Positions 4,371-53,415 of a stretch of 64,000 nucleotides of DNA are shown here, one piece after another. Under the pieces are notes generated by a model. It was not told the origin of the DNA. It worked only from the letters and a program-made list of their open reading frames with translations, and ran no database searches. Positions within the stretch are counted from its first letter, which is position 1; the number at the start of each line of letters is the position of its first letter. The position numbers were made by a program, and so were the translations under genes. Source of the stretch: Isoetes taiwanensis (Eukaryota > Streptophyta > Lycopodiopsida > Isoetales > Isoetaceae); contig JAJEKV010000062.1 of the NCBI GenBank assembly GCA_021234155.1, positions 5,799,668-5,863,667 of the forward strand, written 5' to 3'.

Positions 4371-4474
4371 TGGTCTCCGTGGACGTTAAAAAAACTATTC
4401 TATTCTATTCTATTCTATTCTATTCTATTCTATTCTATTCTATTCTATTCTATTCTATTCTATTCTATTCTATT
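4369..4474 (+). mobile_element. LINE 3' terminus with (CTATT)n tail
   Basis: The 25 bases from 4369 (GATTGGTCTCCGTGGACG then T/A-rich) match the extreme 3' end of the LINE relic at 63451-63480 (GATTGGTCTCAGTGGACG then TAAAAA), which carries an ATTCTT-type tail. Here the tail is a CTATT pentanucleotide of about 16 perfect units (4395-4474). The shared 3' end followed by a short tandem tail indicates two insertions of one LINE family, with the tail unit differing between copies. Only the very end is present, so this is a severely 5'-truncated insertion. Confidence 0.6.
4395..4474 (+). repeat. (CTATT)16 microsatellite
   Basis: Perfect pentanucleotide array of about 80 bp. It directly abuts the A-run that ends the LINE 3' end, so it is best explained as an expanded retroelement tail. 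It is likely to be length-polymorphic. Confidence 0.95.
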
Positions 4475-34065: not shown

Positions 34066-34762
34066 TGTGACGCCCTTTACTGTGATACCGCAGCACTCAC
34101 CGTGATACAAACAGAGTTCATCCTCCATACCAGCTCCATGTCGATATAGGGCCCTCCACATATCATCGCACCTCGCAACGAGTCCCAAAGTGGGAAGAGT
34201 GAAGGGGTCATTTTACCCCGCCTCCCTCGTGGTCTACCTAGTCTGCAAGCGTAAACATACATATCAAGACATAACATCATCACATATCCACCTCGGCGGG
34301 TGGTACATCAACATCCGCATAGACAAAGATCAAAGACAATACATATGGGTTCCTACCCAAGGCTCGCACTCAGGGATGACCGACGCTTTGGGTCTCCGTG
34401 AGTTCATTGCGCATGTAATCATGACAATGGATTTGGCTGGCATGAGAACATGGCATAGGGTTGTCCACTCCATCCGCCTCCCCCCACACACTTTGCGTGT
34501 AGGTTGAAGAGTGTTGGGACCTCGACCAGAAGCCTCACGGGATGCATAGCCAAAGGGGCTATTCCCGGGTTGCATCTCCCCGCCCGATGGGGGGCGTGTA
34601 GGGATCACTCCCACCGTAGATCTCCATGCCGACTAAGGTGACTAGAGGGCCACCGCCTCTTATTCGACTTAACCCAATCGAAAGTGAACATCACTCCACC
34701 TGGTGTCGAGCCCATGCCTTACCCACACGCAGCGGGGTGCAAGCCATTAGACCTAGTCTACA
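34066..34762 (-). repeat. 3' LTR of the chromovirus
   Basis: On the minus strand it starts TGTAGACTAGG at 34762, directly after the polypurine tract, and ends ...GGCGTCACA at 34066. It is colinear with 52036-52715 over its whole length, with substitutions and small indels. Homology stops sharply at both edges, which defines the LTR. Confidence 0.85.
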
Positions 34763-34777
34763 TTTTCTCCCCACCTT
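34763..34777 (-). promoter_or_regulatory. Polypurine tract of the LTR element
   Basis: On the minus strand the 15 bases AAGGTGGGGAGAAAA immediately precede the LTR start TGTAGAC. This is the position and composition expected of the primer site for plus-strand DNA synthesis in LTR retrotransposons. Confidence 0.8.
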
Positions 34778-35590
34778 AAATTGATGCCGTCCGCAAAGAT
34801 CGTGGTTCTCCCCACTTGGGATCTTCTTAACCCGCAATCAACTTGATGCATACGATATACTATTATCATAGTTACACATTTATTATGATTACCTTGAGGT
34901 AATATTTTTAGAATATTATTATACTATTATTCAATCAAATACTTATCAATTGCATGTCATTACAACAATTATCCATTAGTTTTACTTATCATAATGTTTT
35001 AGTTTATCAATATATACAATTATTCTCTCGAGGTACTTTTTCATTCCTTGCAACACATTACAACAAAATTTGTGTTGTAAGTCTTCGTAGCTCACCTCCT
35101 AGCCCCTCCTGAGCGCCCATTGGCCTCAGAGGTCAACACTACGCTAGTACCATTTTTAATTATTTATAAATTTGGTTATAAGGAACCACCCCAACTATCT
35201 ACATGTAGGAAGAGGATGCTTCTTCCATCGTGGGTCGGAGACAAATACCTATAATGCCTATATGGCTTCATGCCTACACCTTTAGTTGTCCAAATGGGAG
35301 GATAGGGTCCTTCACAGATATATGGGGCGGAAGGATAGGGTCCTCCCCGTAGGCATTGACTAGAGGTGCTTTTCCTATCAATGCATTCCCGAATGACCTC
35401 TTATCTTCGAGGTCGCCTACTCCGTGGGACAGAAGTAGACCTTTCAGCGAACCGCGGTCATGCCTACATTGACATTACATCAAGGCCCCAGAGATCACCG
35501 TAGTGATCTCATCATCGGTAACAACGCATGCAACCCATACCTCATAGGTTGCATGCGTAGATTATACTTAACTATGCAAGCTATAATTCT
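34778..35590 (-). other. Non-coding 3' internal region of the LTR element
   Basis: About 800 bp between the end of the integrase frame and the polypurine tract. It is AT-rich from 34845 to 35045. It contains no supported frame and is the 3' untranslated part of the retrotransposon. Confidence 0.5.
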
Positions 35591-36845
35591 ACACAGTTCG
35601 ACATGCCTGAGCCGATTTCTTCGGAGATGACCTTGCTGTCCCATTGCTCCATAAACTGTGGGTACTACTTTATCAGATCTCTTTTAAGTACCCATGTCGC
35701 ATCTTCCACCGGCAAGTGTTTCCACTTGACCAAGTATTGGAGAAACTCCGATCTCCTTGTTTTCTTGAATGCTTTATCAAGAATTAGTTCTGGAACTATT
35801 TCTATCTCGCTTCTTCTCATCATTTCCAACATCGTTGGAGTGTCCAGGACTTCATCTGGATTGGGAGTGTGCTTCTTCAGCAAACTCACGTGGAAGACTT
35901 TGTGGATCTTTAAGTGTGCTGGCAAGTCTAGCTTGTAGGATTGGTTACCTACTCTTTGTATTATTCTGAAGGGTCCAGCCCACCTTGGAGCAAGCTTCTT
36001 ACAATTTCCGATGCGGAGCTTAGCCTGCTTTACCTTGATCTTGAGCCATACGTCATCTCCAACTTGGAACTCTCTGACTGTCCGATGCTTGTCGGCGATG
36101 CTCTTTTGCCGACTCCTTGCTGCGAGGAGATACCCTCGAACTTCTTCCACGAGCTGCTGCATGTCGCCCAACATTTGCTGCGAAACTTCCACTTTTGACA
36201 CAGGGTTGTGCCAAGTGTCTGGAGTTAGGCATTGATAGCCGTAGTTGATCATGAACGGCGACATTTGGGATGATTCCTGCTTGGTGCTATTATATGCAAA
36301 CTCCACCAAGTGAATAAAATCTTCCCACATACCTTGCTTGTTCCAGACATAGTTCCGTAGCATATCCTCCAATATTCTGTTGGTACGCTCCGTTTGCCCA
36401 TCCGTCTGGGGATGATAGGCCGTGGCTCATGGATAGCTTCGTCTCAATCGCTATAAGAGGTCCCGCCAAAAGGCACCGATGAACTTCGGATCTCTGGGCC
36501 GGAGATAATTTCCCTTGGCATACCATGGAGCCCAAGATTTCTTTGGTGAAGAGCTTTGTTGTATCCATAGTCGTGGTCCGGGGTCCCGCAAGGCACAAAA
36601 TGGGCCATCTTCGACAACTTGTCGACCACCTACCATCAAGGCATCCTTCCTCTTATTGTTCTTGGAAGCCCCGCTATGAAGTCCATGCCGACGACCTCCC
36701 ATTTAGCCGCTTGGCACCGCTTAATGGTTCCAATGCACCCGAATTCGGTTGTTCTCGCTTCGCTTGTCGACATAGCCGACATTCCTTGATGTGGCGAAGC
36801 TACCGCTTCTTCATTCCCGCCAATAGTAGCTGCTACGCACTTTGA
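35590..36845 (-). pseudogene. Chromoviral integrase with GPY/F and chromodomain
   Basis: The order on the minus strand is: zinc-binding remnant with ECRLCRQAKREQ (about 36720-36800); core with DKLSKMAHFVPC and LHGMPREIIS, the SDRD replaced by a frameshifted GPEIR / RPRDPKF stretch, and FIGAFWRDLL; LVEFAYNSTKQESSQMSPF; GPY/F region RWAGPFRIIQRVGNQSYKLD and FHVSLLKKH; then a chromodomain, FLQYLVKWKHLPVEDATW. The 236-codon part 36372-35665 is open. Upstream, the core is broken by frameshifts, and an in-frame TAG follows DLIK near the end. The integrase inserted the retro-DNA, and the chromodomain steered it to heterochromatin. It cannot be functional as it stands. Confidence 0.88.
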
Positions 36846-36849
36846 AGTA

Positions 36850-38350
36850 TGTCTTCACGAATCCCCGCGGGCCAGCTATTGGGTGTTGTGGGTGTCGTGG
36901 AGGATCAACTTTCTTACTCCGATGATTCAGCATGCACAACTTGTTCTTATGGTACGTAAGGTTACCTTCCTTCTTAAAATTTTTGAAGGCTTCCTCTCCT
37001 TATCCGCTCGCTTCCTTGCACAAGCTTGCCCATACTTTTTGAAGTCCACATCCGCTGGCAAGGTTTCTTCAATCTTCTTCCCGAAATCGCCGGAGAGCGC
37101 CGAATTGCATTGCAATGCACTCTAGTTGTCAGCGATGCCTTGAAAGTGCATCCGCTACCACATTAAGCTTCCCGGGCTTGTAGACTATGTCAAAGTTATA
37201 CCCTTCGAGAACTCCATCCACCTTCGCCGCCCAAAGTTAAGGTGTGGTTGCGTGAATACATATTGAGGCTCGTGATCCGCGGTCCAATTGGAACTTCCTT
37301 CCTAAGAGGTAGTGCTCTAGATTCTTAACGCCCGACAACCGCAAGCAATTCCCCGATCGTGGCCGTAGTGGCGTCTCTCGCATCGCTCATCTTCCTGAGT
37401 CATACGCTATTACCCGCTTTTGCATGAGCACCGCACTGCGGGCTATCTTACTTGGCGCCCTCAGTCGCCACTAGCTTGTCCTTCTCCCTCGTCCGGCAGG
37501 TCAAGACGGGCGGTTGTCAAAGCTTCCTTCAACAATTCAAATCCTGCTTGGGCTTTCTTAAGCCAATGGTCTCGGCCTAATTTTTCACCTTTTCCGCCTT
37601 CGCAAGTCTGTTAGTGGGTTGCTATCTTTGGGCGTTCTTCACAAACTTTGTAATACCCTCGCTAGGCCGAGGAAACTTCCGACCTCGTGGACGTTCTTTG
37701 GTACCGCCATTGAATCATCGCTTCAATCTTGGCGATCCGCCGAGATTCCTTCGCTGGAAATCACATGACCGGTGTTCCACCTTTCTCTCAAGGCGGCGTC
37801 ACTGACAATTTGGCATACAACCGATGCCTCTTCAACTTCTCGAAAGCACCTTTCTACGTGTTGTGCATGTTCTTCAATGGATCTGCTATACACCGTAATC
37901 GTCGCCGAAGAACACTATCACGAAAGGTGTCCAAGAATTCTTCGAAGATGTCGCTCATGAGTCTCATGAACGAAGCTAGGGCATTTGATAGCCAAATGGC
38001 ATTACCGCGGAACTCGTAATGCCCATACCGGGTCCTCGGCGCCGCTTTGTGGATGTCTTTTTTCTTTATCCTGATCCGGGTGGTAACCTCGACCTTTAGG
38101 TCGATCTTTTGGAGAAGACCTTTGCCCCTTGAGCTGATCCATCAAGTCGTCCGACCCGGGGTGCGTGCTTGTTCTTGATGGTGTGCTTGTTTCAATTGTC
38201 TGTAATCTATGCACATCCTCAAGCCGCCATCCTTTTTCTTGACAAAGAGGATGGGTGCCCCAAATGATGAGACGCTAGGTCTAATGAAGTCTAGGTCGAA
38301 AGCAATTCTTGTAATTGTTTCTTTAGTAGCTCCGGGCCATTCTGCCATTC
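36850..38350 (-). pseudogene. Reverse transcriptase and RNase H of the chromovirus, decayed
   Basis: Reading the minus strand from 38348: RT fingers [20 protein letters not shown] and [13 protein letters not shown]-type segment with [10 protein letters not shown]; palm region NAIWLSNALASFMRLMSDIF; and DTFVIVFFGDDYG at about 37910, where the YVDD-type motif is shifted out of frame. RNase H is represented by RVIAYDS (about 37400) and its C-terminal signature DIVYKPGKLNVVADALSR (about 37139-37205). Several frameshifts and stops separate these blocks, so no contiguous polyprotein remains. Confidence 0.85.
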
Positions 38351-38499
38351 TATACCTGAGCCTTGCTCGTCGGCTTGGTTCCTGGTTCGAAAAGCTATCT
38401 CGCGACTCGACTCCGTAGAAGGAGGAAGTTGCTCGATCTCATCCGGAAGAGATCGTGGAACTCCGCGATCAAGTTGGCTATTTGCTTGGGCAACTTGCT

Positions 38500-40360
38500 G
38501 AGCACTTTGTCTTCCTTGCTTTCCTCCTCACTCGGGTTCTTCAATCTCAAGTTTGAAGATGTATGCTACCGCCGCTTCTTGATTAACTTGAGCAGCTTCT
38601 TAATAGACATACACCGCATGATGGGAGCAACTTTTTACCTCGTGATCTCAATAACTTTGCCGCTTCCGGGCGCCAGAGGGTCACCTTCCGCTTCCACGCC
38701 AATGATGGCCCCTCGCTGGTCCAAGGTACTCCATTCCTATTATCAGTCGTGATTTGTCGATGCCCATTACTTCGCCTCCCATCGATATTAATCCCCGCAA
38801 GTCAATGTCGAAATTTATCATCTTCCCCGCCGCTTGTCTTATTGTTCGGCCGCCAAGATTACGGGCCTTGGCTTGGACTTTAAGGGTTTCAACTTCAACA
38901 TGTCGACCATCCTTGGGAAAGCTTAAGTTGTGGCTACTTCCCCGAAGTCTATTAGGACTGCGGAAGGACTTGGTTCCGCCTTCCCTATTGTGGAAATTAC
39001 TTATACCGATTCTCTCGCATGTTCTCAGATCTATAAACAAAGAAAGATGTGGCACTCACCCTCAATATAATCGCTACGCCTCGGCCATTGCCGCCGACCG
39101 GAGTGTCCCATCCACTCCAACTCGCTTAGCTACCGAGCTCATGACGGCGGGGCACTTCGCCGCTTCGCGGGCTCCTGGCCGGAAGCATCCGGGCAAAGCC
39201 GCTTCTCCATACACTCCCCGCCTCTTTCTTTGGGCATTGCTTGTAAGAAGGATCGCGACCGCTTTTGAGTAGTTCGACCTTCCCGCGCTTGTCCTTGAAG
39301 GACACCTCGCTTCCTTTCCCCTTTGTCTCCCCGGGTTGCCATTATATGGGGATTTTGTAGACTTGGGCTTGTCGCCCTAGGGCTATAACTCCCTGTCTTT
39401 GCCTCTATCCCCCGTTAGTACTACGGCTGCCACTATTCTCGAGGCCCCCATCCTTGCAAGCTGATTGCTTTTGATTCTGCTTCGATAATTCCTTGGGGTC
39501 TATTGCCCTTACAAGCTTGCGTGATCTCTTCGCTCGGGGCCCTTCAATGTAGCTCTCCATCAAGCTTTTCACTCCAACTTCGCACATACAGCCTTAGTCT
39601 CATGAACTCCTCGTACTTCGCGACTTGTTTTGTACCCTTTGCCGCAACCTCGTGAAACCGCCGTGATCATGTTGACTTGTGTTCCCGTGGAACGTGAATG
39701 GCGCTTTGAAGGCTTTAGAAAATTTCTTGAATCTGCACCCATCTCTCGCTTTAGCCATGGGCCTTGGCATAACCCTTCCACCGTGATGCGCGTCCTTTCA
39801 AGTTGGCTGCCACCCCGCCTTGTCCTTGTCTTTCATCCCAGATCGTTCGTCATACTTCGCCATCTCGTCGAGCCATGCCTCTCGCCTAAGCCCGACCGTT
39901 TCTCACCGAATTGTTCAAGCTTCCGAGCCTTCCATACATTGCCCAAAGGCTGAAGTCTACCTTCTTCTCGTAGTCTAAGGCCTTAGTGTCCTTCTCGTTC
40001 ACTGCCTCCACGGTCCGGTACTTGTTTCAAATTTTTCTGACTCGAGTCCGAGAGCCAGCTTGAGTCGAGGTTTCGCACTAGGGGACCTCCTTATCTTACT
40101 CCTCTTCTTATCCTTCCCCACTTTCGAGGTTTGTTTGCGCCCTACCGATGCTTGTGCCGCTTAGTAGAGCCTTTTATCCGTCGAAGTTCGTCCGCATTTG
40201 CGACATCTCCTCTTCGAGTCATGGGACCATATCCTTCGAACAGGTTTTGAATGGGTCTCTCATGGCCTCCCCGCTTTGTTCGATCGTTTCTGCTCCTATC
40301 TCGCATACACAATAATATAGCCTTACTTGCTAGATTCAGCCATTTTATTGTATTCATGTA
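38500..40360 (-). pseudogene. Gag and aspartic protease region of the chromovirus, decayed
   Basis: Position and order place gag here. The frame from 40357 (MNTIKWLNLASKAILLCMRD) is charged and Arg/Lys-rich; 39781-39569 contains PWLKREMGADSRNFLK; 39342-39139 is basic. A protease remnant at about 38990-38760 shows FGSSHNLSFPK, resembling the D-S/T-G-A-S-H-N-F active-site region of retrotransposon proteases with the catalytic motif altered. I cannot see a clean CCHC zinc knuckle. Frameshifts are frequent, so borders are approximate. Confidence 0.6.
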
Positions 40361-40783
40361 TTTGGGATATATTTGGAACCAAATACAATCAACAAGGTTT
40401 TAAATCTTAGCACAAGATGTTTCTTTATTACATAATATTTTTAGATACAAGTCCTCCCAGATCAAGATTTTAACTACTCTTGAAATCGCTTCTAGGATGG
40501 GTTATCCTCTAAAAATTTCTTAACTTGGGCCGCTCCTACCGAAGGCCCCAAGTTCCTAAGGACATTGGTTGACGCCCCGCCTATAAGGTCTGCCACCACC
40601 TCTACTCATGGGTCGGAGGTGTAGGCCATCATTGTCGCTTAATCTTCCCCGCCCGGGCTCTGTTAGGGCACCTGGCCAAGTCGAAGATGTCAAGTGCCAT
40701 CGCCTTCTTGACTAAGACAAAGATAGTCGACGCTTGCAGCTATTCGAGCATGCATGCCAAAGCCAGAGAAACAAGATTGCGTA
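40361..40783 (-). other. Internal region of the LTR element left of the DNA transposon
   Basis: Continuation of the retrotransposon's internal sequence upstream (minus sense) of gag. No intact frame is visible. It is interrupted at TTAA (40784-40787) by the DNA element and should resume at 48228. Confidence 0.5.
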
Positions 40784-40842
40784 TTAAACGGGAGCAAATC
40801 ATCAAAACGAGAGCAAAGGGAATATTCCTAAAAGATTCCTTT
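40784..40842 (+). repeat. Left end of the TTAA element: target site, terminal and subterminal inverted repeats
   Basis: TTAA, then ACGGGAG (40788-40794) and AAAGATTCCTTT (40831-40842), both mirrored at the right end. Between them GGAATATTCC (40819-40828) contains the two half-sites of the element's internal palindrome in inverted order, which may be a transposase recognition feature. Confidence 0.65.
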
Positions 40843-41141
40843 TTTTTACAAAAAAGGGGGTAAAATGAGGTAAAAAAAAGTTGCATGAAATTCAATTTTG
40901 ATCCCCCCCCAAAATGACTAGATTTTTTGTGGAACGAAAGAATTGACTTTTTAAAAGTGACACTTTTCGTGAGCAAGTAGAATGTTCTTGAGTATGTTTT
41001 TATAGAGAAACTCTAATTTCAAAGGATAAAATATTTAACAAGAAATTGAAGTAAAGTATGTAACTGATACTGTAGTATTCTCAAAATTTGAAGATAAAAT
41101 CTTCATATTCACATGCAAAATTTACAGCCTTTTTCTAAGAC

Positions 41142-43606
41142 TCAATTATGTGCAAAAGTGTGAGGAGTGATGAAGGAGAGATCCAGGACATCGTCATGTT
41201 CATTTATGCCATCCTCATCTCCTTCACTTCTTTCACTATCACTCGAGGAAGTGCTTGAGTTGTCTTCCTCATCACTATCAACAGATGGTGAAGCATTGCC
41301 ACCACCACTCCCTTCTTCATCCTCTTCCTCGTAATTACAAGCTTTTTTAAGCAAATTGATAGTTCTCTGGCACAGACGATTGTCAGATTTCAATTTGAAA
41401 TCGTAGCATAATATAGTCACATCACTTAAGTTCAGCTCGTCCCTACAACCCACTTTCTTAGACTTCCTCCCCTTTCCTTGAGTTCTCATTTCTAACTAAT
41501 ACCTACCTTCAAAAGCATTTTCTCGAACGTAGGCCAGCCAATGAATCTTGAGTTTAGTTACTAAGCCTTCCTCCTTGACCGTGATCAAGAACTTTTGCTA
41601 TCTAAAAGGTCGACCTTTGTCATCTTCCTCGCTTGGAAGAGCAATCAAAGATACCTTTTAGCTATTTCTCGTGATATTGCCTTGAGGCTCATTCCCACGC
41701 CTTGGTCCGGGAGGTACATGACTCGTCCTTTCTTCCTCTCTGCCAGATGCTATTGCAAAGATGACTTAGACCTGCCTGGTTCTGGGGTTGATGGAAGGTA
41801 TCAGGCCATTGAAATGGTTCTTGCAACTGTCTTAGAGCTAGATGTTCTAAGACATCCTTCTGGTCAAGAAAAAAATTTCTCCACCACATCTTATCTTCTT
41901 CTGAGAAGTACTTGAAGCCCGAGGAAATGCCATTTTCAATGGCTTTTAAGGATGTCAATGGGGTACTTTTCTTCTGTTTGGACTCCTTAGGATTTTTGAG
42001 AGGTAGTTGCTCAGCAGGCTCTATGAAGCAATGGTCTGGAACAAATTTAAGGAAGTGCAATCCCTCTGGTGGACTCCAATCCTTAGTTGTGGTGTACTTC
42101 TTCCCCTATAAGAAGCTTTGTCCATCCTTGAAGTAGAACTTAATGTGATGTTGAAAGGTAAGATCATTCAACTTGTTCACAGCTAGTTCTCTATCTGAAC
42201 GTTGAGGAAAAACAAACTCTCTAAAGTCAGCAGTCTCTTTAAGAAGCTCGACCACTGGAACAGGAGTGTAAGAATCTTCAATGATTCGAACTAAAGTAGG
42301 AAGACAAAAAGCTTTCTTCCTTCTAAGGCGCATAGAAAATCTGCTGAACATCTGGTCAATCTGATCATGGGTGTGCCCCACAAGTAAAAATCCGAGCTTT
42401 ACTTTTCTGAAGATCCTTAGCTCCACTAGCATAGCACAATAAGCAAAGAGTGTTTGATTCTTGTTCTCTCTTGTAGTGTTGTCAAGTTGCAAGTAGAGCA
42501 CTGGTGGTAGTTGCTCTTGCTCGCAGAGGACCTTGTTAGGAATTGTAATTGTCAGGTTTGGGTCACCATGCAAGTTTGGATACGTCAAAAATACTTTGCA
42601 CTTTAGACTTCCTTTGAAGACCATGGCTCCTACGAGGTGGACTTTAACAAAACATTCCTCTGGCACATCTTTTGGAATATTTAGGAAATGGGGTAGAGTT
42701 GTCTTTTTTTTATCCATTCCATCAATTACAATCGACATACATTGCAATGGACGTTCGAGAGCTTTTTTTCTGTGCTTGGCCAGCTTTCTTCTCTCTGCTG
42801 CTTGTTGTTCACGATGTCTGGCAAGATTCTGTTGCACAATATCTGTAAAAGAAATCAGGTTAAAATATTCTTTTTATAACAAGTGAGAGGCTGGAGAGCC
42901 TGAGCTTACTTCTTTCGACCTCTGTCTTTGCAGTTTCTCGTTGACTTTTTAACTCTGCACATCTTGAGCAAACAGACATTCTATGTCTTCTTGGAATTTT
43001 TACCAGGCCAAATTCACTCTTCCACAGTCTAGTGAAGTGTGAGTAAGAGATGTGCTGAAACTGAATGCAAGTCTCTTTATATTCTTTGAAGACATCCTTT
43101 TTTGTAATATTGTCTGTCAGATGATACATGTTGCTATTAGGCAACTTCTCACATGTCTCTCTAAAATATTTCTCCATCCATGTCACAGCAGCCAAGGCAT
43201 GCATGGTCACAACTCTTCTTGGACCACAATGATCATCAATTGCTGGATTTTTGTCCAGTCTTTTGTGTATTCGAGACATTCTTGTGGACCCTAAGCGGTG
43301 GACAACCATGAAGCATTTTTGGCAGACTTGTTCACGGTTAACATAGTGTAAGAATGTGTTGCGGTCTGGTCTTACATGGTAAGCTAAGTAGGCATTCTGG
43401 TCAGCCAATGTCATTGAACCAGAAGTTGTCTCTAACCGCCGTAATTTAGCCATGTTAAATCTGTTGATGCAACCCAATGAGCAGCATTTAGTTCTCAAGA
43501 GTCTCCTCATTTTGTGTTCATCCATTAGGTTTCTTCTTCTTACAGAGGAGCATGCTCTCAAACTAAAATCCACCTTGAATTTCTTTGAAGATTGGCTGGA
43601 GAACAT
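41142..43606 (-). pseudogene. Transposase-like zinc-binding protein of the DUF7869 kind
   Basis: Exon 43606-42910 and exon 42842-42106 join in frame across a 67-bp GT/AG intron. The first exon has Cys clusters (CCSLGC, CQKC, CSRC), likely zinc-binding. The second has MSIVIDGMDKKKTTLPHF, VFLTYPNLHGDPN, YLQLDNTTRENKN and LVGHTHDQIDQMFSRFS. Conserved Asp residues in strand-like settings (IVIDGMD, LQLDN, HTHDQID) suggest an RNase H-fold, DDE-type nuclease; that catalytic role is inference. This domain set is what I know as DUF7869 in algae, bryophytes and invertebrates. A TAG at 42106-42108 stops the frame, but homology continues (GKKYTTTKDWSPPEGLHFL to 41689), then with breaks to LKIHWLAYVRENAFEGRY and an acidic Ser/Asp/Glu-rich tail ending at 41142. 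So it is a pseudogene of a roughly 800-residue protein. Confidence 0.7.
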
Positions 43607-43639
43607 GTAATCTCGCTGTTCCTCGCTGGTGTCTCCATC

Positions 43640-44340
43640 GCCCCGATGAAACTTCTACTCTAGAGGTGACTTCCTCACCCGAAAGGGTGTGTTAGTAGAG
43701 GAAAACAGGCCACGCGAAGTTGTTCCCTAAAAGGCTGTAGCACAAAGCTGTTAAAGGATGGTGATGGCCCATAAGAGGTTGTGGCTGCAGCAGCTCTTGT
43801 ACCCTCCCCGAAGAAGGAGTTCTTGCAAACATATCCTTTAGAGCGGACCGAATTCCACAAAATCCAAAGTCACAACCGCTGTATTACAAGGAGTACATGC
43901 CGCAAAGATCGCCTTCATTTGTAGTGAAGTCCCGGGGACGTAAATTGTAGTGAATCTCACAGCCTTTCGGTTCCTTGTGTACTTGCAACGGGGGTGAAAC
44001 TACAAACGTGGGGGTAGCTTGTTCTGAGCACTCGCTGTGGTGGAGCCTGTGGGTCCGGGATGGAACGAAGGGTGGTGGCAGCATGTTCTCAACCGGAGGT
44101 GATGCTTTGTAAGGAGATGCGAAAGTGCACCGCCTAATGGACTTGGTGCAAATTGGAAGGGTGGTGGTAGTCCGTTACGCGGCCGGACTAGGTGTGTTCG
44201 AGAAGCAACAACGATGTTGTAGAGGTAGGCGCCGGAGAATGCCTGGCCTTCAAGAAAAGGCATTGCTTCCAAGCCGCTTTTCGTAACCGACGAGCTTGAG
44301 ACAACAAAAGGTGCCGGAAGTTTGTTCACGGCGGTTCGGC
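43640..44340 (-). pseudogene. Probable N-terminal low-complexity part of the transposase-like gene
   Basis: Minus-strand frames here are Pro/Ser/Thr-rich with repeated LPPPF / LPAPF motifs and AT(P)TFVVSPP-like segments (44329-44000, 44084-43884, 43860-43675). Their position directly upstream of the zinc-binding exon suggests a disordered N-terminus, but I cannot join them into one frame. They could also be promoter-proximal non-coding DNA. Confidence 0.35.
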
Positions 44341-44785
44341 CATCTTGACAACCGCGAAATAGTGTAGAGATTTGAGAAACTTTCTAGATTGCGCACCTTT
44401 TCTTATTCCCCAATACAAGTTCACGAGTACAAGTGGACGCTGTCAGAACAAATAAGTAAAAGGCAAACTAAAAGCTATTCCTAATACACCGACTAGAACA
44501 AGAAAAGCTAAACGATTCCACTTCACATAGAATAATGAAAGCAAGACGAAAGGGATACCTTTAAAAAGAAATAATGGCCCTCGGGCCATGTATTCTAGTC
44601 TCTCGAAGCTCAAGTCGCCAAAGTACCTAATATTATATTCGTAGATCAGATTCGATTCGCATAGAGAAGACATGGACAAGTGAGTAAAAAGTAAAACGCA
44701 TAATCATTTCTTAGTGTGTTTTATTATTCGAATAGGTTTTATTTTCGTGGTAAGCCAATGTGTGGCTTACACACGGCAGGCCAAA

Positions 44786-44940
44786 GTGTATTCCTAAGAC
44801 ATTATCGAAGGCCAAAGTGTATTCCTGAATACACTTTTGAAGCCAAAGTGTATTCCGATTGGCTTACACACAAAAGCCAAAGTGTATTCCGGAATACACT
44901 TTGCTTACACACGAAGGCGAAAGTGTATTCCGGAATACAC
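44786..44940. repeat. Palindrome cluster 1: GTGTATTCCGGAATACAC and half-sites
   Basis: Perfect 18-bp palindromes at 44882-44899 and 44923-44940, a one-mismatch copy at 44817-44834, and half-sites GTGTATTCC at 44786-44794 and 44848-44856. Most are preceded by GCCAAA or followed by TTT. The cluster lies between the two divergent genes of the DNA transposon, so it may be a shared operator or a transposase-binding region, or lie in a first intron of the plus-strand gene. Confidence 0.92.
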
Positions 44941-45141
44941 TTTAGGTGGTTTTTTTTTGTAAAAAAGTTGCAAATTTAAGAAAAAATAAAGTGTTTTTAA
45001 CACTTTTTAGACGATAAAAAAACCTTTAGATGGGCTTAAATTTGTCTTGTTTTAGTAAAAAAAGTCCAATTGTTATTCCAGAATACGTTTTAGAGTTGTT
45101 TTCATCCTTTAAATTTGGTTTTTGTCTTAAATATGTTACAG

Positions 45142-47887
45142 ACAAGACGGTAGCAAGAAAGCTTCTCGTAAGCCATTAAAGTTAAAGACAAAGCCACACC
45201 CACAGGCAAGTGTACGAGACACAGATCAACCCACCGTGTATGAAAATTTTCAGACACAGTGGAACCTGAAGGATAGAATAAGGAGCAATCCCAATGCCCA
45301 CGTTGCTCCAATTGTCGTTCTTGTTGACAGATCCCAATGCATGGACCCCAAGGACTACGATAGGAAAAATGCAGACACTTATATGCACTACGTCCTTGGG
45401 GGCAACCACAGTTTTAAAGCAAGGAGGCAGTTGTACAAGGAGAAAAACAACCCGAGATATCTCTCTCAGTGCTCGGCCGCTTATCAAGCCCCGACAGATG
45501 AAGAGCCAAGATCGCTGCCAACACGCATAATGCCGACAAATCTAATATAAGCTTAAAATGAGCTTCGCGGACAAAATCAGGTTCATGCATAGGGAATATA
45601 TTATATTCAAAGAAAAATATGGAGAAGATTTAAAGAAACCAAAGATACTCTTTTGAACTAAAGGAAGCGCAGGCCGGGAGTGTCAGCTTCAAGTACGACG
45701 AGGCTAACAAAAGGCAGTCTCTCATTCCACATGACAACTGGTTTCAACTAGCCTTCATAGACGGCAGAGTAAGTTTCTTTTGTATTCTGGAATACGCCTG
45801 GAACCCTCCCACTGACATCGCTTACTGTGCAGATATGGGACCTGCAAAACAAAATATTTAGCATGTTTGAACGTGGTGAACTGAAAAGTAAAGGAAAGAT
45901 AGCCGAAAAGAAAAAGGGATCTGACGTCCCTAAGAAGGAAATGACCATAACCGGTTGCGTGAGAAATGCGGCTTCACGCACCTCACATACCGGAAAGGCT
46001 ACCGCGGAAGGTTGTGGACAAAGAATTCACGCTTTGAAGAAAGGTCCAAGGAGCCGCACAAGTAAGAACTACGTAACATTCTTTCCAGCTTTTCTTAGGT
46101 TGGACGTAGTGTATTCCGGAATACACTTTGGCTTTAACGTGTATTCCGGAATACACTTTGGCTCACACCTTAAAGCCAATGTGTATTCCGGAATACACTT
46201 TCGCTTCGGAGTGTAAGCCAAAGTGTATTCCGGAATACACTTTGGCTCACACCTTAAAGCCAATGTGTATTCCGGAATACACTTTCGCTTCGGAGTGTAA
46301 GCCAAAGTGTATTCCGGAATACACTTTGGCTTGCACGCCACAGCCAATGTGTATTCCGGAATACACTTTGTCTACAAACTTTGAGAAGCGTTTTTTCTTT
46401 ATGTTTTCCTTCTTAGTTAAATTTCTTCTACTGTGGTTTTGTTTTACAGCCAAAAAAATGTCATCACATGTCAAACATGCTTGATGGAACAACTTAACAT
46501 TGACAGCTGGGACAGATGTAAAGAACTTTACCCCATCGCAACCTCGGACGAAAGGATAGTTCAATACGCTCCCAATTTTGAAGGCTGGGTATGCTGAGGA
46601 GTTTTTTGCTTTTTCGTTTCTCGTGTTACAAAGACGATATTTTTTGCAGAGTAAAAAGAAAAATAAGGACCTGCCGGAGGTTTCATGCATCTTGTCGACA
46701 AATACAGGAAGAGAGGACGCTATGCATGTGCGCAGTTTTGGACAATGAGCCCTCCGAGTACGAACGTTTTACCATGTTTGATCAAAACAACCTTTACTGT
46801 ATAGTACACGGTGATTGCACAAAACTGGCCGAAACAATAAAGCCCCAAGATTTTACCTTGGTAGTAGCTGACCTTCCTTATGGATTCAAGCTCAAAGACA
46901 GCCGCTACGACGACCAACCATTTAAAAACTCTGAGTTTAATGCTTTCGCCGACGGCATAAAGCATTACCACGGCAAAAACATTGAGGTTGGTCGATTTCA
47001 CTCAAGCATGCAATCCGGCCTTGTGGAAGCTGGTTTTAAGAATCATTTTGGTTCCCCTATGCAAGCTGGTTATGAAAACATGGTTTGGTAAGCACTTATT
47101 CTGGAATACATATGTCCTTTTAATTTCTTTAAGTTCTTTTTCCTTTTAGTCACACCTCGAAAGCATTGTTAGGATTTTCTATTCCGAATACGCTTTTTCT
47201 ACCAGATTTAAATCCTCTTTTCTTTTTTTGTTCTTAAGGTACAAAACAAATATAAATTACCATGGTGGAGGCCCTAGACTGTTGAGTAAAGTCGAGTATC
47301 TCCACGTAAAACGTACAATGGAACACTTCAACACAGCAACGTGTCAGAACTTTTCGAACGTGTTGGAGTTTCCAGCGGTTTTGCAGAAACTGCAGGACCC
47401 TAGTGCACAAGGAAGAATAGTGAATCACTATCAGAAGCCATAGAAGTTGATTAACCATCTTTTGGACATGTTCTCACGTCCAGGAGATTGGGTGCTCGAC
47501 GCATTTTCTGGCTCTGGTACAACTATTGCTTGTGCACTTAAAAAGGGTCGTAACTGTGTAGCAATTGATATTGATAAGGAGGCTGCCAGTTTCATTAAAA
47601 TGAGACTTTCTGCTTTACCAACTCTACCAGACGAGAATCAAGAGTTGGGGGCAAAGTCTAATTCTGATTTTGCTAAGATGACATCATCGGAAATACAGCC
47701 TATCTTTACAAGCTCCTTAGATGACGAAGCTACTTTTGCAGAGTTAAAAGAAGTAGCTCTTGCTGCCATACCGGAATCAACTACTGACACTGAGAAGCCT
47801 AAGTCACCAAAAAATGGTGAGAAGATAGGAACCGACCAAGCAGAGAGCAGTAAGAAAAATGAAGAAGACTACAATTTAGATCTCTGA
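45142..47887 (+). pseudogene. ParB/Srx-like domain plus beta-class DNA amino-methyltransferase, multi-exon
   Basis: Exons with GT/AG borders: 45142-45768, 45833-46061, 46450-46588, 46650-47087, 47239-47887. Exon 1 encodes a ParB-like fold: VAPIVVLVDRSQCMDPKDY, then HYVLGGNHSFKARRQLY, where the GNH-x-x-x-A motif is typical of ParB/sulfiredoxin-like domains. Exon 3 has CQTCLMEQL, a possible zinc site. Exons 4-5 are a methyltransferase: motif IV VVADLPYGF comes before motif I WVLDAFSGSGTTIACALKKG, the order of beta-class N6-adenine/N4-cytosine enzymes. GRNCVAIDID follows, and the C-terminus is acidic/Lys-rich. Breaks: TAA at 45548-45550 and a frameshift near 45650 in exon 1, a frameshift near 45960 in exon 2, and TAG at 47441-47443 in the KP-K/E-L motif. 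The first coding exon before 45142 is not identified. The ParB-methylase pairing is common in bacterial phages and mobile elements and unexpected in a plant gene. Confidence 0.8.
46109..46366. repeat. Palindrome cluster 2: seven perfect 18-bp palindromes, six phased at exactly 42 bp
   Basis: GTGTATTCCGGAATACAC starts at 46109, 46139, 46181, 46223, 46265, 46307 and 46349. The first interval is 30 bp and all the others are exactly 42 bp. The 24-bp spacers alternate between two sequences and carry TTGGCT / AGCCAA arms, so copies such as 46216-46247 extend to a 32-bp perfect palindrome. The array fills most of the 388-bp intron between exons 2 and 3 of the ParB-methyltransferase gene (46062-46449). 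A 42-bp spacing is four turns of B-DNA, which would place bound proteins on one face of the helix. Confidence 0.97.
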
Positions 47888-48223
47888 CGGACCTTTTGCT
47901 GTGGTTACTTACTGATATTTATTATTGATTGCCATTACTGATGTAACAAAAAAACAGTAAAGAAATTATTATTGTTATTTTTACTAAATTTGTGTTTTTT
48001 GTACATCCACCTACAAATAATTTTGTACTCATGTCTCGATTTTGCTATTTTCACGTGCTTCACTCCAAAAACGAAAGTCGTGTCCAAAAAATACCCCAAA
48101 ATTAGGGCCAAAAAACAACTGATACTCCTGAAACTTTAAACCTCTCTTAAACAAGCCCACTTTTTAGAATGACGTGTTTTTTCTAAAGGAATCTTTCAAA
48201 CGGGAGTGCTGCAACACTCCCGT
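47888..48223 (+). other. 3' flank of the methyltransferase gene and right end of the TTAA element
   Basis: Begins with the TGA of the methyltransferase frame, followed by AT-rich sequence with AACAAAAAAACAG and TTATTATTGTTATTTTTAC runs that could serve 3' end formation. It ends with a perfect hairpin: AAACGGGAGTG (48198-48208), six bases, CACTCCCGTTT (48215-48225). The right arm of that hairpin contains the terminal CTCCCGT and part of the TTAA. Confidence 0.6.
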
Positions 48224-48227
48224 TTAA

Positions 48228-49453
48228 TTTGCAACCTTGTTGAGAGTGCAATGAGCATAAACACTCCTTCTTCGCCTCGGATCAATTTAAGGTGTATTAC
48301 CGCTTATTCTACCATCCAAAGAAATAGGGAAGATAGTACCTCAATGACCTATCATTGTGTATCGCTGATGACTCTCCTCCTGCTTGGCCTCCAGCTCTAT
48401 GCCTTCCGACGTATTCATCGACCTCTACCTCAGTGATTTCTTGGTAGTCTCTAATTGTCGAAGTCGACTGCGTCCGATGTCGATTCCTCGCCCTCTTGTG
48501 TGAGGTGGTGTCGAGGAGCTTGGCATCAAGATGCTCGTGGTCTTGCCACGGATCCCCATCCGCTCTGGATGGCATAGAACTCCTCCTCGATGGCGCCTCG
48601 AGCCTCCATAATTTGCCTTATGTTGCTGTAGACCTGATGTCCCAAGTCGACTCCCCGATAGGTGCTCGGCTTCACTTGTAGCGGAAGTTCCGAGACTCCC
48701 CGCACGATGAAGTCGTTTAAGTCCGGGTGCCGCCGTAGTTGGTGCAAAGAACTTGTCAAGCCGAACTCCTCTCCCCGCATTCGGGAGATTCGATATCGCC
48801 GAGGAGTAGGTACCCTCACCGCCAATGATGATGGGGCTAGGCTTGTGATGCCTAGCCCTAGTGGGGAGCGCCACTCTAGGTCCGGCGGCCGCCGGGTTGG
48901 TTAGCTCCTCTTCGCTTGCCGCCGTTCTTCTTCCGGGTCGAGCCCCGTACTTTCCTCGTCCGATTCTTCTTCTTCTTCCTTTCTTCCTTCCTCGCCGGTA
49001 CTACAAAAGCATCTAGTCTGCCGGGCCGAGGATGCTATGGGGTCCATCTCCATCTGGAGGAATAGAGGTTTCTCCCATTGGGTTTTCAAAGACGGTGGGA
49101 GGAATATGGCCAAGGCGGGCGATGTAGGAAAATACTTGGTCCCGCTAACCGCCGTGATCATGTAATCCGCAACCTCTGTGCCTTGTTGGTCAAATACTTG
49201 GCAATGTTTGGGACATCACCCAAGGCTGCTTGTAGGGATGGGCGGGGAACAAAATAGCCCGTGCAAGGGGGAAGCTAGGGACTGACCTATCCTAGCTTGG
49301 AACTCAGCCAAAACTTGCTCAGATGCCGGGCGCTATGCGTAAGGTTTCTTGGACATCTATTTCCTTGCCAAAGACTCGGAAGATGTCATGGACATCAGCC
49401 TCGGCTACATGGCCACTGGCGCTGTACCATCTTCTGAAGTCAGTAGTTGCCAT
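48228..49453 (-). pseudogene. Extra 5' unit A of the LTR element, unknown product
   Basis: An ATG at 49453 follows a TATA box by about 110 bp and opens a frame MATTDFRRWYSASGHVAEAD that stops after 44 codons. Further minus-strand frames carry an acidic run EEEEESDEESTGLDPEEERR (48901-49161 region) and the segment RRYRISRMRGEEFGLTSSLH, continuing to IRQIMEARGAIEEEFYAIQS (48526-48825). I do not recognise the protein. The position between PBS and gag suggests either an unusual gag or an additional retrotransposon ORF, now broken by several frameshifts. Confidence 0.4.
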
Positions 49454-49559
49454 TGATCTAGGGAAGAGGTGAGTAACAAACAGATGCAGGAGCACCTATG
49501 GGAGCTGGGAAATCGCCTAAAGGGTCAAGAGCAGACTTGTAGGGTGTCAAGTGGGAAAT

Positions 49560-50090
49560 GGAGGCCTATTTATAGACAAGGGAAAAACCCTAATTTTTGG
49601 ATGACTTAGAAATTTATTGGGGTTGGGCAATTCTGACCTATTAGGAGGTCCAAATGAGGATTTGAAGACTACTTTTGGGGTTTGAGCATGCTAAGATTAG
49701 CTAATGAACCTATTGCAACAAACCGAGGTCATTTGGATATGGCATGGTGGAGAATTTAATTGAGAGGTCTCACACGCTGCTCGCACTAATAATGAAAGTT
49801 TCATTTTTGATCCCGGGCGTGGCGGTGAGACATTGACTCAAAATGGGTTAAACTTGTCCAATTTGGGTGATGTAAGGGTCTAATTCTGCTAGATTCATCG
49901 AAGTTAGGCGCGTAATCCATCTCTTATTTGGTCGATTTGGAGCTGTTTTGGGCACTTTTAATATGGTTCATATGTTGCGCCTGCACTAAAAATGAACTTT
50001 TCATTTTCGGTCCCGGGCGCGACGGTGAGACATCCTCTCAATTTTGCTTAAAGTGTCCGCTTTTAACTAAAACAAAACCAAACTCAATAA
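49560..50090 (-). promoter_or_regulatory. Promoter-like module A with paired hairpin motifs
   Basis: Minus-strand order: a motif at about 50040-49974 (ATGAA-CTT-TTCAT followed on the plus strand by GGTCCCGGGCGCGACGGTGA), a second at about 49840-49785 (ATGAAA-G-TTTCAT then GATCCCGGGCGTGGCGGTGA), then a TATA box GTCTATAAATAG at 49577-49566, then the ATG at 49453. The same arrangement recurs in module B, so it is a duplicated regulatory unit. Function is inferred from the TATA box and ATG placement. Confidence 0.55.
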
Positions 50091-50232
50091 TTCAACTCAA
50101 TTAAACAAGATTAGACATGTTACTTTGTCAAAAACTCTTTATATTAACAAAATTTTTCTATTATTTACAAAATTTTAAGGTCGCTTCTCCCTTTGATGTA
50201 GCTAACAAGATGCATGTCCCGCTTCATTAGTG

Positions 50233-51346
50233 TCACTCTTTTGCATGGATCGGGCAGCCGCCGAGCCCAAAGAACATCTCATCCATCACCCTCATCTCCG
50301 TGTTGTATTCTTGAATTACCTCCTGACTAGCTTCCGGGCGAATCTGCAGACCTGGGATCAAGAACCCGGCTAATAAAAATGCCCGATCTCTCTCGGGCTT
50401 TTCTCTCGCCTCCTTTCTACCGGTTCTCTTTTTGCCCGGTGGTCTAGGAGGCTTGGGCCTCTGTGGTGGTGGCTTCGTTAATGCGGCTCTTCGCCGGATG
50501 TCCACCTTCTATATAGTTCTAACCCCGCTTCATTGTAATATGTGTTGTACGCCCCCACTTTGCCATGAAGGCATTGTGCTCCTTAGTTTCTTCCTCGATA
50601 GACCTTGATGGGTTATCACGACGCCTCAGCTGGCGCCGGGCGCTTTGTTTTGTCCCACGCCGGGTATGGCGGGGCTTATGCACTTGATCCGGCCGCCTGG
50701 GTCCTCTGGTCGCCTGCCACGTCGATGGGGGCTTAGAAGAGCTTCCACCGCAGTGTTGGGGTTGAAGTCTTCATCTTCAGAGTCGCCGAGGAGGGTGGGG
50801 GCTGGTCTGCGGGCGTTCCTGGATGACGACCGCCGCGTGGAGTTTTCTTGAGTCTCCTTTTGCTTTCCTCCACTAACTTCCCCTTCTTCTTCTTCTTCTC
50901 CTGCCGCCTTGGCCTCCTCTTCTTCCCTCTTCCTTTTTCTTCTCTTCTCTCTTCCTCCGGGCGTTCTTTCGCTTCTTGCTTCTTGATCCACGCCCGTAGT
51001 TCCTCCTCTTCGCTGATCAAGGGTCGGCTCTCTACTGCTCTTCCCGGCCTCGGCCACCCGATCTTGTTCATCCTTCTTCTTCCTTTCCTCCTCCATTTCT
51101 TCAAAAACCGCCACATCACGTCCCTCCTCATTGTCGAGGACTTCTGTCCCGCATCCCGGAGTGTGCATCCTCCTCTTCTTCCGCCTCACCCCTTCTTAGT
51201 CGTTGTTGTTGCCGGGTGCCTTCTAACCGCTGCCTCACGCCTCAATGTTGACATCCTTGCCGAAAAGAGGCGCCTCAAGCATCTCCCGGAGTAGGGCGCC
51301 GGAGTTGTGACACCCGGAGGAACTCTAGCAGTTTCGGTCCGGCCAT
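50233..51346 (-). pseudogene. Extra 5' unit B of the LTR element, Arg/Glu-rich unknown protein
   Basis: An ATG at 51346 follows a TATA box by about 100 bp and opens MAGPKLLEFLRVSQLRRPTP, stopping after 23 codons. The minus-strand frame 51189-50626 (187 codons) is extremely charged, with runs such as REKRRKRKREEEEAKAAGEE, a TLLGDSEDEDFNPNTAVEAL stretch and a basic C-terminus. A further frame, 50505-50233, is basic and Pro-rich at its start (TKPPPQRPKPPRPPGKK). Such composition suits a nucleic-acid-binding or nucleolar-like protein. I recognise no family. It may be the true gag-like product or an accessory ORF of this element. Confidence 0.4.
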
Positions 51347-51439
51347 GTTTGACGGCTCACAACCTACAGTCACAGCCAAAATCGCTTCTTTAGCAAGGGG
51401 AGCGATTTTTCTAAAGAGGAACGTGGAAAATGGGGGGGG

Positions 51440-51860
51440 TCCTGGGTCTATTTATAGATGGGCAATTTTAGGTCAAGTTTCAAACTACTCTTTTGGGTGA
51501 GCCAAGACACTTATTATCTTACTACATGGCTAAATTTAGACATTTCTAACCTCATGGTCTCATACGCTATTCCAGCATCAATAATGAAAATTTCATTTTT
51601 GGTCCCGGCGCGACGCAAGACATGGTGAATTTTGATGCTAAATTTTATACTTTCTAAGCATGTTTTAGGAATGTAACATACTAATCTGCTTTTTAGCTTG
51701 AAATTCAATTACCATGTTACTTTTCTGAAATTCATCACTTTTCAAGGTGTTTTTGGCAACAATGTTCATCGCGTATACCCAGCCCAAAATGAACTTTTCA
51801 TTATTGGTCCTCCGGGCGCCGACGCTGAGACCATCCTACTTTTGAAGGTTTTGGCTCACT
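51440..51860 (-). promoter_or_regulatory. Promoter-like module B with paired hairpin motifs
   Basis: Copy of module A: hairpin motif at about 51840-51788 (ATGAA-CTT-TTCAT, then GGTCCTCCGGGCGCCGACG), another at about 51625-51585 (AATGAAA-A-TTTCATT, then GGTCCCGGCGCGACG), TATA box ATCTATAAATAG at 51459-51448, ATG at 51346. Distance between the paired motifs is about 205 bp in both modules. Confidence 0.55.
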
Positions 51861-52020
51861 AATTTTAGTCTTTTATGTTCTAATTCACTTGATCACATTA
51901 GCTTAAGATATACTACCAAAAATGAGAAAAAATTTTCCCATTTTTTGAGGTTTGAAAATCCTATCAAGTTAGTACTACTTGGAGCATGGTCACTGCTTTG
52001 TTCTTGGTCTCCAAGAACAT

Positions 52021-52033
52021 TGCTCTGATACCA
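52021..52033 (-). promoter_or_regulatory. Primer-binding site, initiator tRNA-Met type
   Basis: The minus strand reads TGGTATCAGAGCA two bases downstream of the 5' LTR. TGGTATCAGAGC is the standard plant LTR-retrotransposon primer site complementary to the 3' end of initiator tRNA-Met. It fixes the element's orientation (minus) and identifies 52036-52715 as the 5' LTR. Confidence 0.85.
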
Positions 52034-52035
52034 CC

Positions 52036-52715
52036 GCGGACGCCCCTTACTCATATACCTGCACTCACCGTGATACAAACAGAGTTCATCCCCCATACCA
52101 ACTCCATGTCGATACAGGGCCCTCCACATATCATCGCACCTGTGAACGAGTCCCAAAGGGGAAGAGTGAAGGGGTCATTTTACCCCGTCTCCCTCAGGGT
52201 CTACCTAGTTGGCGGAAGCGTAAATATACATGTCAAGACATAACATCATCACATATCCACCTCAAGGGTGGTACATCAACTTCTCGTGATAGACAAAGAT
52301 CAGCACAATACATATGGGTTCCTACCCAAGGCTCGTGACTCTGGGATGACCGACGCTTGTCTCCCCGTGAGTTCATTGCGCATGTAATCATGACAATGGA
52401 TTTGGCCGGCATGAGAACATGGCATAGGGTTGTCCACTCCATCCGGCCTCCTGCACACCGGTAGGTTGAAGAGTGTTGGGACCTCGACCATAGCCCTCAC
52501 GGGATGCATAGCCAAAGGGGCTATTCCCGGGTTGCATCTCCCCGCCCGGGGGGGCAGTGTAGGGATCACCCCACCGTAGATCTCCATGCCGACTCAAGGT
52601 GACTAGAGGGCCACCGCCTTATTCGACTTAACCCACTGAAAGTGAACATCACTCCACCAAAACAGCCCATGCCTTACCCACACGCAGCGGGGCAAGCCAT
52701 TAGACCTAGTCTACA
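52036..52715 (-). repeat. 5' LTR of the chromovirus
   Basis: Colinear with 34066-34762. The minus strand starts TGTAGACTAGG at 52715 and ends near 52036 (GGGGCGTCCGCGG, degenerate relative to GGCGTCACA in the other LTR). It is followed directly by the PBS. It differs from the left LTR by substitutions and small indels. Confidence 0.82.
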
Positions 52716-53415
52716 TTGATCCCCGAGACTTTACACACCGTAGGGATCGGTCAAGAGTCGTGAACACTAACCTCCTTGAGCCAGCCCGCCCCTTCACCCA
52801 CAAACTGTGTGGTTCTTGTACACAGCCGAATTCTAGTAATGCACTAAGAGGGACTAGCTAGGAGCATCAACTACTAAGCTTTAAGTCTCTACCCCCCTTC
52901 CCAATATAATGAGTCCACAGAATTCATCCATCCATCACATCATCATAGAACTAAAGAATAAGAACTAATTTATATCATAGAGTTAGCTTCTTTAGTTAGG
53001 GTCAGTTTGGGGATCTGCTTGGCTACTACGGGCAATTTAATAGGCTAAACCTATTGGTTCGATGGCTGGAATACGATTTAGGCTATTAAATTGACTAAAT
53101 ACCTGATCCCTGGTTCACTCCTCTTGATCCGAATGCGTCCATGTCGCTGTTCTGCTTGGGGATGCGGTCGAAAGGAGAATCTGACGAGCTGGGGCACACG
53201 GGCAGATCTTGGGAATTGGATTTGACTCCTCAGGCGCGTGAACTGGAGCTCGGAAGGTTTGTGGACGAAAAGGGAAGAATTAGAATTTGGTTACCTTACA
53301 TAGGCTATCAGTTAGGTTTAGGGTTCCTATGACCCTTGGTCTGCCTTTAATGGGTTAAAGGTTTAAAGTGCATTGCTAAGGTAAGCACTTTGCAAGTTGC
53401 CCCCTAGGGCTTTCC
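52716..53415. other. Orphan segment between the 5' LTR and the LINE remainder
   Basis: About 700 bp that matches neither LTR nor an obvious LINE part. It contains a mirrored TTTAATAGGCTAAACC / TTTAGGCTATTAAA stretch (53038-53094) and an open frame of 63 codons (53141-53332) without resemblance to known proteins. If the LTR element had inserted cleanly into the LINE this segment should not be here, so it records another insertion or a rearrangement. Confidence 0.5.

Follow-up and report, generated by a model that had tools for sequence, protein, structure and literature searches.

Positions 40788-48223 of a 64-kb stretch of Isoetes taiwanensis DNA (contig JAJEKV010000062.1; hereafter the window) hold a candidate DNA transposon of 7436 bases, which encloses two divergent intron-bearing genes, one for a DUF7869 protein and one for a DNA methyltransferase. 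The stretch is a real DNA transposon, though a decayed one, whose cargo gene is unusual and whose intronic palindromes are striking, and its assignment as a DDE transposon carrying an amino-methyltransferase is well supported by sequence comparison and structure prediction. To the full reading, i.e., a 7.4-kb cut-and-paste transposon inside a Ty3/gypsy long terminal repeat (LTR) element, which would mark its own copies, we assign a probability of about one half. What is new here are the 24-bp palindromes in the methyltransferase introns, whereas transposon-borne methyltransferases are already known elsewhere.

Boundaries of the element

The transposon interrupts a host element whose LTRs (34069-34764 and 52039-52717) are 89.6% alike over 704 columns. 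The stretch 35665-36426 on the minus strand encodes SH3_Tf2-1 and chromo domains, as in Ty3/gypsy integrase, and by these domains the host element (34069-52717) is of the Ty3/gypsy type with a chromodomain. A previous sequence-only reading had reported TTAA flanks, inverted ACGGGAG ends and a second inverted pair, all of which were located on the sequence at the coordinates given:

40784-40787, no strand: TTAA, left flank, candidate target-site duplication (sequence)
40788-40794, plus strand: left terminal inverted repeat ACGGGAG, a 12-bp inverted match together with TTAA and one further base
40831-40842, plus strand: subterminal inverted repeat AAAGATTCCTTT, left copy, 43 bases inside the left end
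48185-48196, minus strand: subterminal inverted repeat AAAGATTCCTTT, right copy, 27 bases inside the right end
48198-48225, no strand: right-end hairpin with an 11-bp stem and a 6-base loop
48217-48223, minus strand: right terminal inverted repeat, CTCCCGT on the plus strand (sequence)
48224-48227, no strand: TTAA, right flank (sequence)

The terminal inverted match comprises 12 bp, ATTAAACGGGAG, and extends one base past TTAA. TA sits within TTAA at both ends, and this single copy fits a duplicated target of either TTAA or TA. The right-end hairpin is more stable than all of 200 shuffles (z -6.0), and the left end shows no such excess of stability over shuffles (z -0.55). At the left end (40788-40820), two direct copies of ACGRGAGCAAA are found in place of a hairpin.

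Chance formation of such ends was assessed with 1000 dinucleotide shuffles of the two 1.1-kb flanks. An inverted pair of at least 11 bp was present in 274 of the 1000 shuffled flank pairs, and a pair with TTAA in 20. The former frequency, together with boundaries drawn from one copy, would fit two nested elements, i.e., a small DUF7869 transposon beside a separate methyltransferase-bearing sequence, with inverted ends that arose by chance. However, two inverted pairs nested within 60 bp, as observed, occurred in only 1 of 1000 shuffles, in a version of the test that was picked after the finding had been seen; moreover, like-flanked inverted pairs bounding only one of the genes were sought, and none was convincing once A/T-only pairs had been dropped. 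We regard the composite as quite improbable. The methyltransferase probably belongs to the element.

The DUF7869 transposase gene

All Pfam-A families were searched by hmmscan at E 0.1 with nine frames of the element. The resulting matches, DUF7869 on the minus strand (E 3.4e-50) and N6_N4_Mtase on the plus strand (E 7.3e-14), agree with the two divergent genes proposed from the sequence. The first gene reads as follows:

41689-42105, minus strand: C-terminal continuation of the transposase frame, beyond the in-frame stop (translation of the open reading frame, ORF)
42106-42842, minus strand: transposase exon with DUF7869 (PF25273) and the RNase H-like core (Pfam, AlphaFold model)
42843-42909, minus strand: transposase intron, GT-AG (GTAAGC...TTTTACAG; reading of the sequence)
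42910-43654, minus strand: upstream coding exon of the transposase, carrying a pair of CxxC clusters (CQKC, CSRC), start provisional (ORF translation)

An AlphaFold model of the DUF7869 protein (pLDDT 89) shows an RNase H-like DDE core, and its closest folds are Mos1 and retroviral integrases. Conservation was counted over the non-gap rows of alignment A1, in model numbering: Asp 43 is kept in 37 of 41 rows, Asp 123 in 53 of 53, Asp 165 in 52 of 56, and position 162 holds Asp or Glu in 55 of 56. Both marks of DDE membership, the RNase H-like fold and three acidic residues, are thereby present in the predicted protein, the third residue being 162 or 165. The sequence-only reading had noted an RNase H-fold-like Asp pattern and had suggested folding the protein in search of a DDE core; the pattern is supported by the model together with the conserved Asp 43, 123 and 162/165, and the fold contains such a core. 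If true, DUF7869 would gain a function as the RNase H-like core of a transposase. Relatives with names come from a liverwort and a lancelet, Riccia is among the relatives, and the word DUF7869 does not occur in the literature searched (one library). The in-frame stop of this gene lies at 42106-42108, a place that all four inspected relatives read through. Upstream, overlapping minus-strand frames at 43884-44383 repeat an LPPPF-like peptide; these are possibly N-terminal transposase exons or old tandem repeats.

Among known superfamilies, Tc1/mariner provides the nearest fold to the DUF7869 model, and its TA lies within TTAA at both ends, but there is no match to its Pfam family. TTAA is the target of Sola3. 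It is also the target of piggyBac; in the single copy seen here TTAA stands on both sides, but TA would fit equally. Pfam includes a piggyBac transposase model; within Pfam-A at E 0.1 the exon matches DUF7869 only, and distant kinship with piggyBac would still fit. Kolobok elements, according to the available text of PMC9587614, have a TTAA target, 5'-RR...YY-3' ends and a C/DxxH motif between the second Asp and the last acidic residue. The present ends read AC...GT if TTAA was duplicated, and not 5'-RR...YY-3', and inspection of the translation by eye from Asp 123 to Asp 165 shows no C/DxxH.

The methyltransferase gene and its intronic palindromes

The METHYLTRANSFERASE gene on the plus strand can be read as six exons (44672-47887), with five introns that are all GT-AG and of locally matching phase; the exon-intron model is our own reading of the sequence:

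44672-44679, plus strand: exon 1, ATGGACAA, followed by a GTGAGT donor; its frame fits the next exon
44680-45141, plus strand: intron 1, with palindromes at 44814, 44879 and 44920 and a degenerate one at 45068
45142-45768, plus strand: exon with the ParB-resembling region (VLGGNHSFKARRQLY), three frame changes, relative P0105
45769-45832, plus strand: intron 2, with a degenerate palindrome at 45777; boundaries are our reading
45833-46061, plus strand: exon (IWDLQNKIFSMF...), one frame change
46062-46449, plus strand: intron 3, with seven palindromes within 46106-46369
46106-46369, no strand: the seven palindromes AAAGTGTATTCCGGAATACACTTT of intron 3, 0-2 mismatches, spaced by one 30-bp step and then five 42-bp steps
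46450-46588, plus strand: exon (sequence reading)
46650-47087, plus strand: exon with methyltransferase motif IV (DLPYG), one frame change
47088-47238, plus strand: intron 5, with degenerate palindromes at 47091 and 47180; boundaries are our reading
47239-47887, plus strand: last exon with the S-adenosylmethionine (SAM)-binding motif (DAFSGSGTT) and PF01555, in-frame stop at 47441-47443

The PF01555 match on the last exon improves to E 2.5e-18 on the read-through. Motif IV, in the exon 46650-47087, lies upstream of the SAM-binding FSGSGTT of the last exon, which is the beta-class order, and because motif IV stands ahead of the SAM-binding motif, the gene is shown by its sequence motifs to encode a permuted beta-class amino-methyltransferase of bacterial type. 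Its closest solved proteins are CcrM, RsrI and MboIIA, which we take to be adenine-N6 enzymes, and CcrM is also ranked first by NCBIfam for the relative P0106; the product is probably N6-methyladenine. P0106 shares 83% identity over 21% of the query and reads open at the stop of the present copy, which implies that other copies or orthologs exist.

For the N-terminal part, a single relative was detected, P0105 (27% identity by BLAST, 30% in the alignment), and the two have in common VLGGNH, an HN box and IWDLQ.KIF. In their order these boxes resemble those of ParB, at the motif level only. The sole positive signs come from one same stretch of P0105, with weak matches to HTH_ParB (E 0.05) and Spo0J (E 0.11). 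We hold it somewhat more likely than not that this possibly ParB-like part belongs to the same protein as the methyltransferase.

A 24-bp palindrome, AAAGTGTATTCCGGAATACACTTT, recurs with 0-2 mismatches at 44814, 44879, 44920, 46106, 46136, 46178, 46220, 46262, 46304 and 46346; degenerate single palindromes are located at 45068, 45777 and 47091, and a shorter one at 47180. The palindromes are thus placed in introns 1, 2, 3 and 5, and the five 42-bp steps each correspond to four helical turns. All 12 sites of the core TATTCYRGAATA in the 64 kb lie in methyltransferase introns, against 0.04 sites predicted from base composition; the exons and intron 4 are free of the core, as are the 1 kb between the genes, the transposase half and the remaining 56 kb of the window. 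By exon sum, about 35% of the gene is non-coding (1127/3216 bases), and by our own arithmetic about six palindrome clusters, taken as independent, would all avoid the exons by chance with a probability of roughly 0.002. The earlier suggestion that the element could methylate 'its own ends or array' becomes somewhat more credible, given that palindromes with the core motif are confined to these introns within the window.

These observations bear on a rival explanation, in which an ordinary DUF7869 transposon happened to pick up the methyltransferase as a passenger in this lineage, and in which the palindromes would be intronic minisatellites devoid of function. Gene capture by transposable elements is frequent, and the single copy, the decayed gene and the tandem arrays all fit this explanation. 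However, a methyltransferase relative at 83% identity indicates that the gene also occurs beyond this locus, plain slippage is insufficient to account for isolated degenerate sites outside the tandem arrays (introns 2 and 5, and 45068), and the core-motif sites are all intronic, the transposase half and the kilobase between the genes being free of them. We consider the passenger explanation rather unlikely, although it is the most serious of the rivals.

Proposed self-marking and related systems

In the proposed mechanism, the DUF7869 protein would cut at the inverted ends and join them at TTAA (or TA). The N-terminal part of the methyltransferase protein might bind the palindromes, which we hold to be possible but somewhat doubtful, and the enzyme would thereby be loaded onto copies of its own element and mark them. 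The mark could keep a copy expressed or mobile despite silencing by the host, or exert feedback on its own expression. Self-marking is the function that we prefer for the methyltransferase, though only tentatively. The boldest version seems improbable to us: a plant DNA transposon superfamily with its own 'address and writer', in which a ParB-like, palindrome-loading N6-adenine methyltransferase encoded by the element is recruited to parS-like sites in its own introns and sets a bacterial mark on the copies, so that they gain a self-identity unreadable by host silencing through 5-methylcytosine (5mC). If the palindromes are the sites of the enzyme, the element would offer a self-contained system for testing how a mobile element marks itself against silencing.

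Several observations weigh against this reading. There is a single decayed copy, and no second locus with the gene pair was met: the methyltransferase gene carries one stop and about five frame changes, and the transposase gene one in-frame stop; with both genes broken, present activity is without support. Foldseek alone returned nothing at E <=0.001 for the DUF7869 model and ranked Argonaute at the top. The whole-window controls for the end motifs, at one mismatch, are weak (TTAAACGGGAG: 3 matches, equalled in 7 of 100 shuffles; AAAGATTCCTTT: 4 matches, equalled in 2 of 100). A looser palindrome pattern has one match outside the element, and the palindromes could be a mere minisatellite or could act as hairpins (single-strand folding of the array: 105 bases, z -12). 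Regarding ParB, there is no ParBc match in Pfam, hhalign against 40 phage ParB domains gave a probability of 0.2 (with the GGNHxxKA box in register with the ParB GHTRYKA box), and the predicted structure of P0105 failed to fold (pLDDT 40). Hence, from the earlier claim of a ParB/Srx-like domain joined to a beta-class amino-methyltransferase, the latter half holds by PF01555 and motif order, and the former was not confirmed by Pfam, hhalign or folding. The broken state of both genes, their introns and the palindrome arrays in the methyltransferase introns go beyond that claim.

Mariners in viral genomes carry endonuclease and methyltransferase genes, as described in the available text of PMC3627910. 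As here, a DNA transposon with a DDE transposase bears a DNA methyltransferase gene; in contrast, they reside in virus genomes, have an endonuclease gene and use a mariner transposase rather than DUF7869, their methyltransferases are Methyltransf_26 or cytosine-C5 types instead of beta-class amino, and intronic palindrome arrays are not met in that text (PMC3627910). The joint presence of endonuclease and methyltransferase in these mariners, and an anti-viral role proposed for transposon methylases (PMC6338049, available part), would favour a defence or restriction-type enzyme, which would protect the element against a nuclease or target incoming DNA. However, the Pfam matches of the nine longer frames of the element include no nuclease family, and we deem a defence role very improbable. 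The earlier statement that a plant transposon class with this gene pair is unheard of fits the literature searched, with the qualification that methyltransferase-bearing DNA transposons are known from these mariners (PMC3627910).

A plant precedent for motif arrays is provided by the Arabidopsis Mutator-like elements (MULEs) VANDAL21 and VANDAL6, as far as the available parts of PMC5735166 describe them. In VANDAL21, the short motif to which VANC21 binds is repeated in tandem across introns and other non-coding sequence, the intron of VANC21 among them, and such arrays evolve through tandem duplication (PMC5735166). Both cases concern a plant DNA transposon with motif arrays in the regulator gene's own intron, and the confinement of arrays to non-coding parts is found here as well (in this one copy, each of the 12 core sites falls in an intron of one gene). 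Unlike here, DNA methylation is lost through the action of VANC, the term palindromic is never applied to the motif in that text (PMC5735166), and the transposase is of the MuDR type (PMC12730594, available part). Several lineages of fungal TET/JBP DNA transposons likewise carry a DNA-modifying enzyme, which differs in being a methylcytosine dioxygenase, in fungi and with other transposases (available text of PMC12730594). DIRS and Ty3/gypsy retrotransposons with DAM or DCM are further eukaryotic selfish elements with DNA methylases, but they are retrotransposons; according to the same source, in its available part, land plants such as tracheophytes lack transposons with DNA methylases (PMC6338049; 2019). 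If true, the present element would be a land-plant DNA transposon with its own amino-methyltransferase, where such methylases are called absent. In the literature searched, no methyltransferase-bearing DNA transposon was met in a land plant or with a DUF7869 transposase, which is a weak negative.

The solved relatives nearest to the present methyltransferase, which we take to be 6mA (N6-methyladenine) enzymes, stand against the 4mC (N4-methylcytosine) of bdelloid N4CMT and a Marchantia enzyme. Those two are bacterial-type amino-methyltransferases in eukaryotes as well, but are 4mC host genes with no transposon carriage described in the available text of PMC8885841. Phages fuse ParB folds to a PF01555 methyltransferase (PMC12704722, available part); should the ParB reading be right, the present gene would share with them a ParB-like part followed by PF01555, whereas those fusions are prokaryotic and homology of the N-terminal part was unconfirmed by hhalign.

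Searches for relatives in phage records gave 729 with a methyltransferase match, all below 60% identity. P0105 matched 61 phage records (best E 0.4), and among the 20 listed the annotated functions were tail genes. In viral contigs, the DUF7869 pattern matched 163 stretches, none a relative, and P0105 and P0106 as queries had no matches. Two methyltransferase candidates in viral contigs led nowhere: one matched in a single segment (query residues 57-77; L001), the other at 31% (query residues 511-568; L003) in a 274-aa methyltransferase ORF without the N-terminal part. A 22-mer of the palindrome had 0 matches in viral contigs; an 18-mer had one in genome contigs, a bacterial stretch with a single site, which was taken as chance.

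Elsewhere in the window, an ORF at 21905-22882 matches only Myb in Pfam (E 0.019) and is presumably GARP/KANADI-like; this stretch and the Riccia relative point to a land plant as the probable host. A 213-aa ORF at 54586-55227 has no Pfam match at E 0.1; we assume that it resembles the endonuclease end of a LINE. Positions 4395-4474 form a perfect (CTATT)16 microsatellite.
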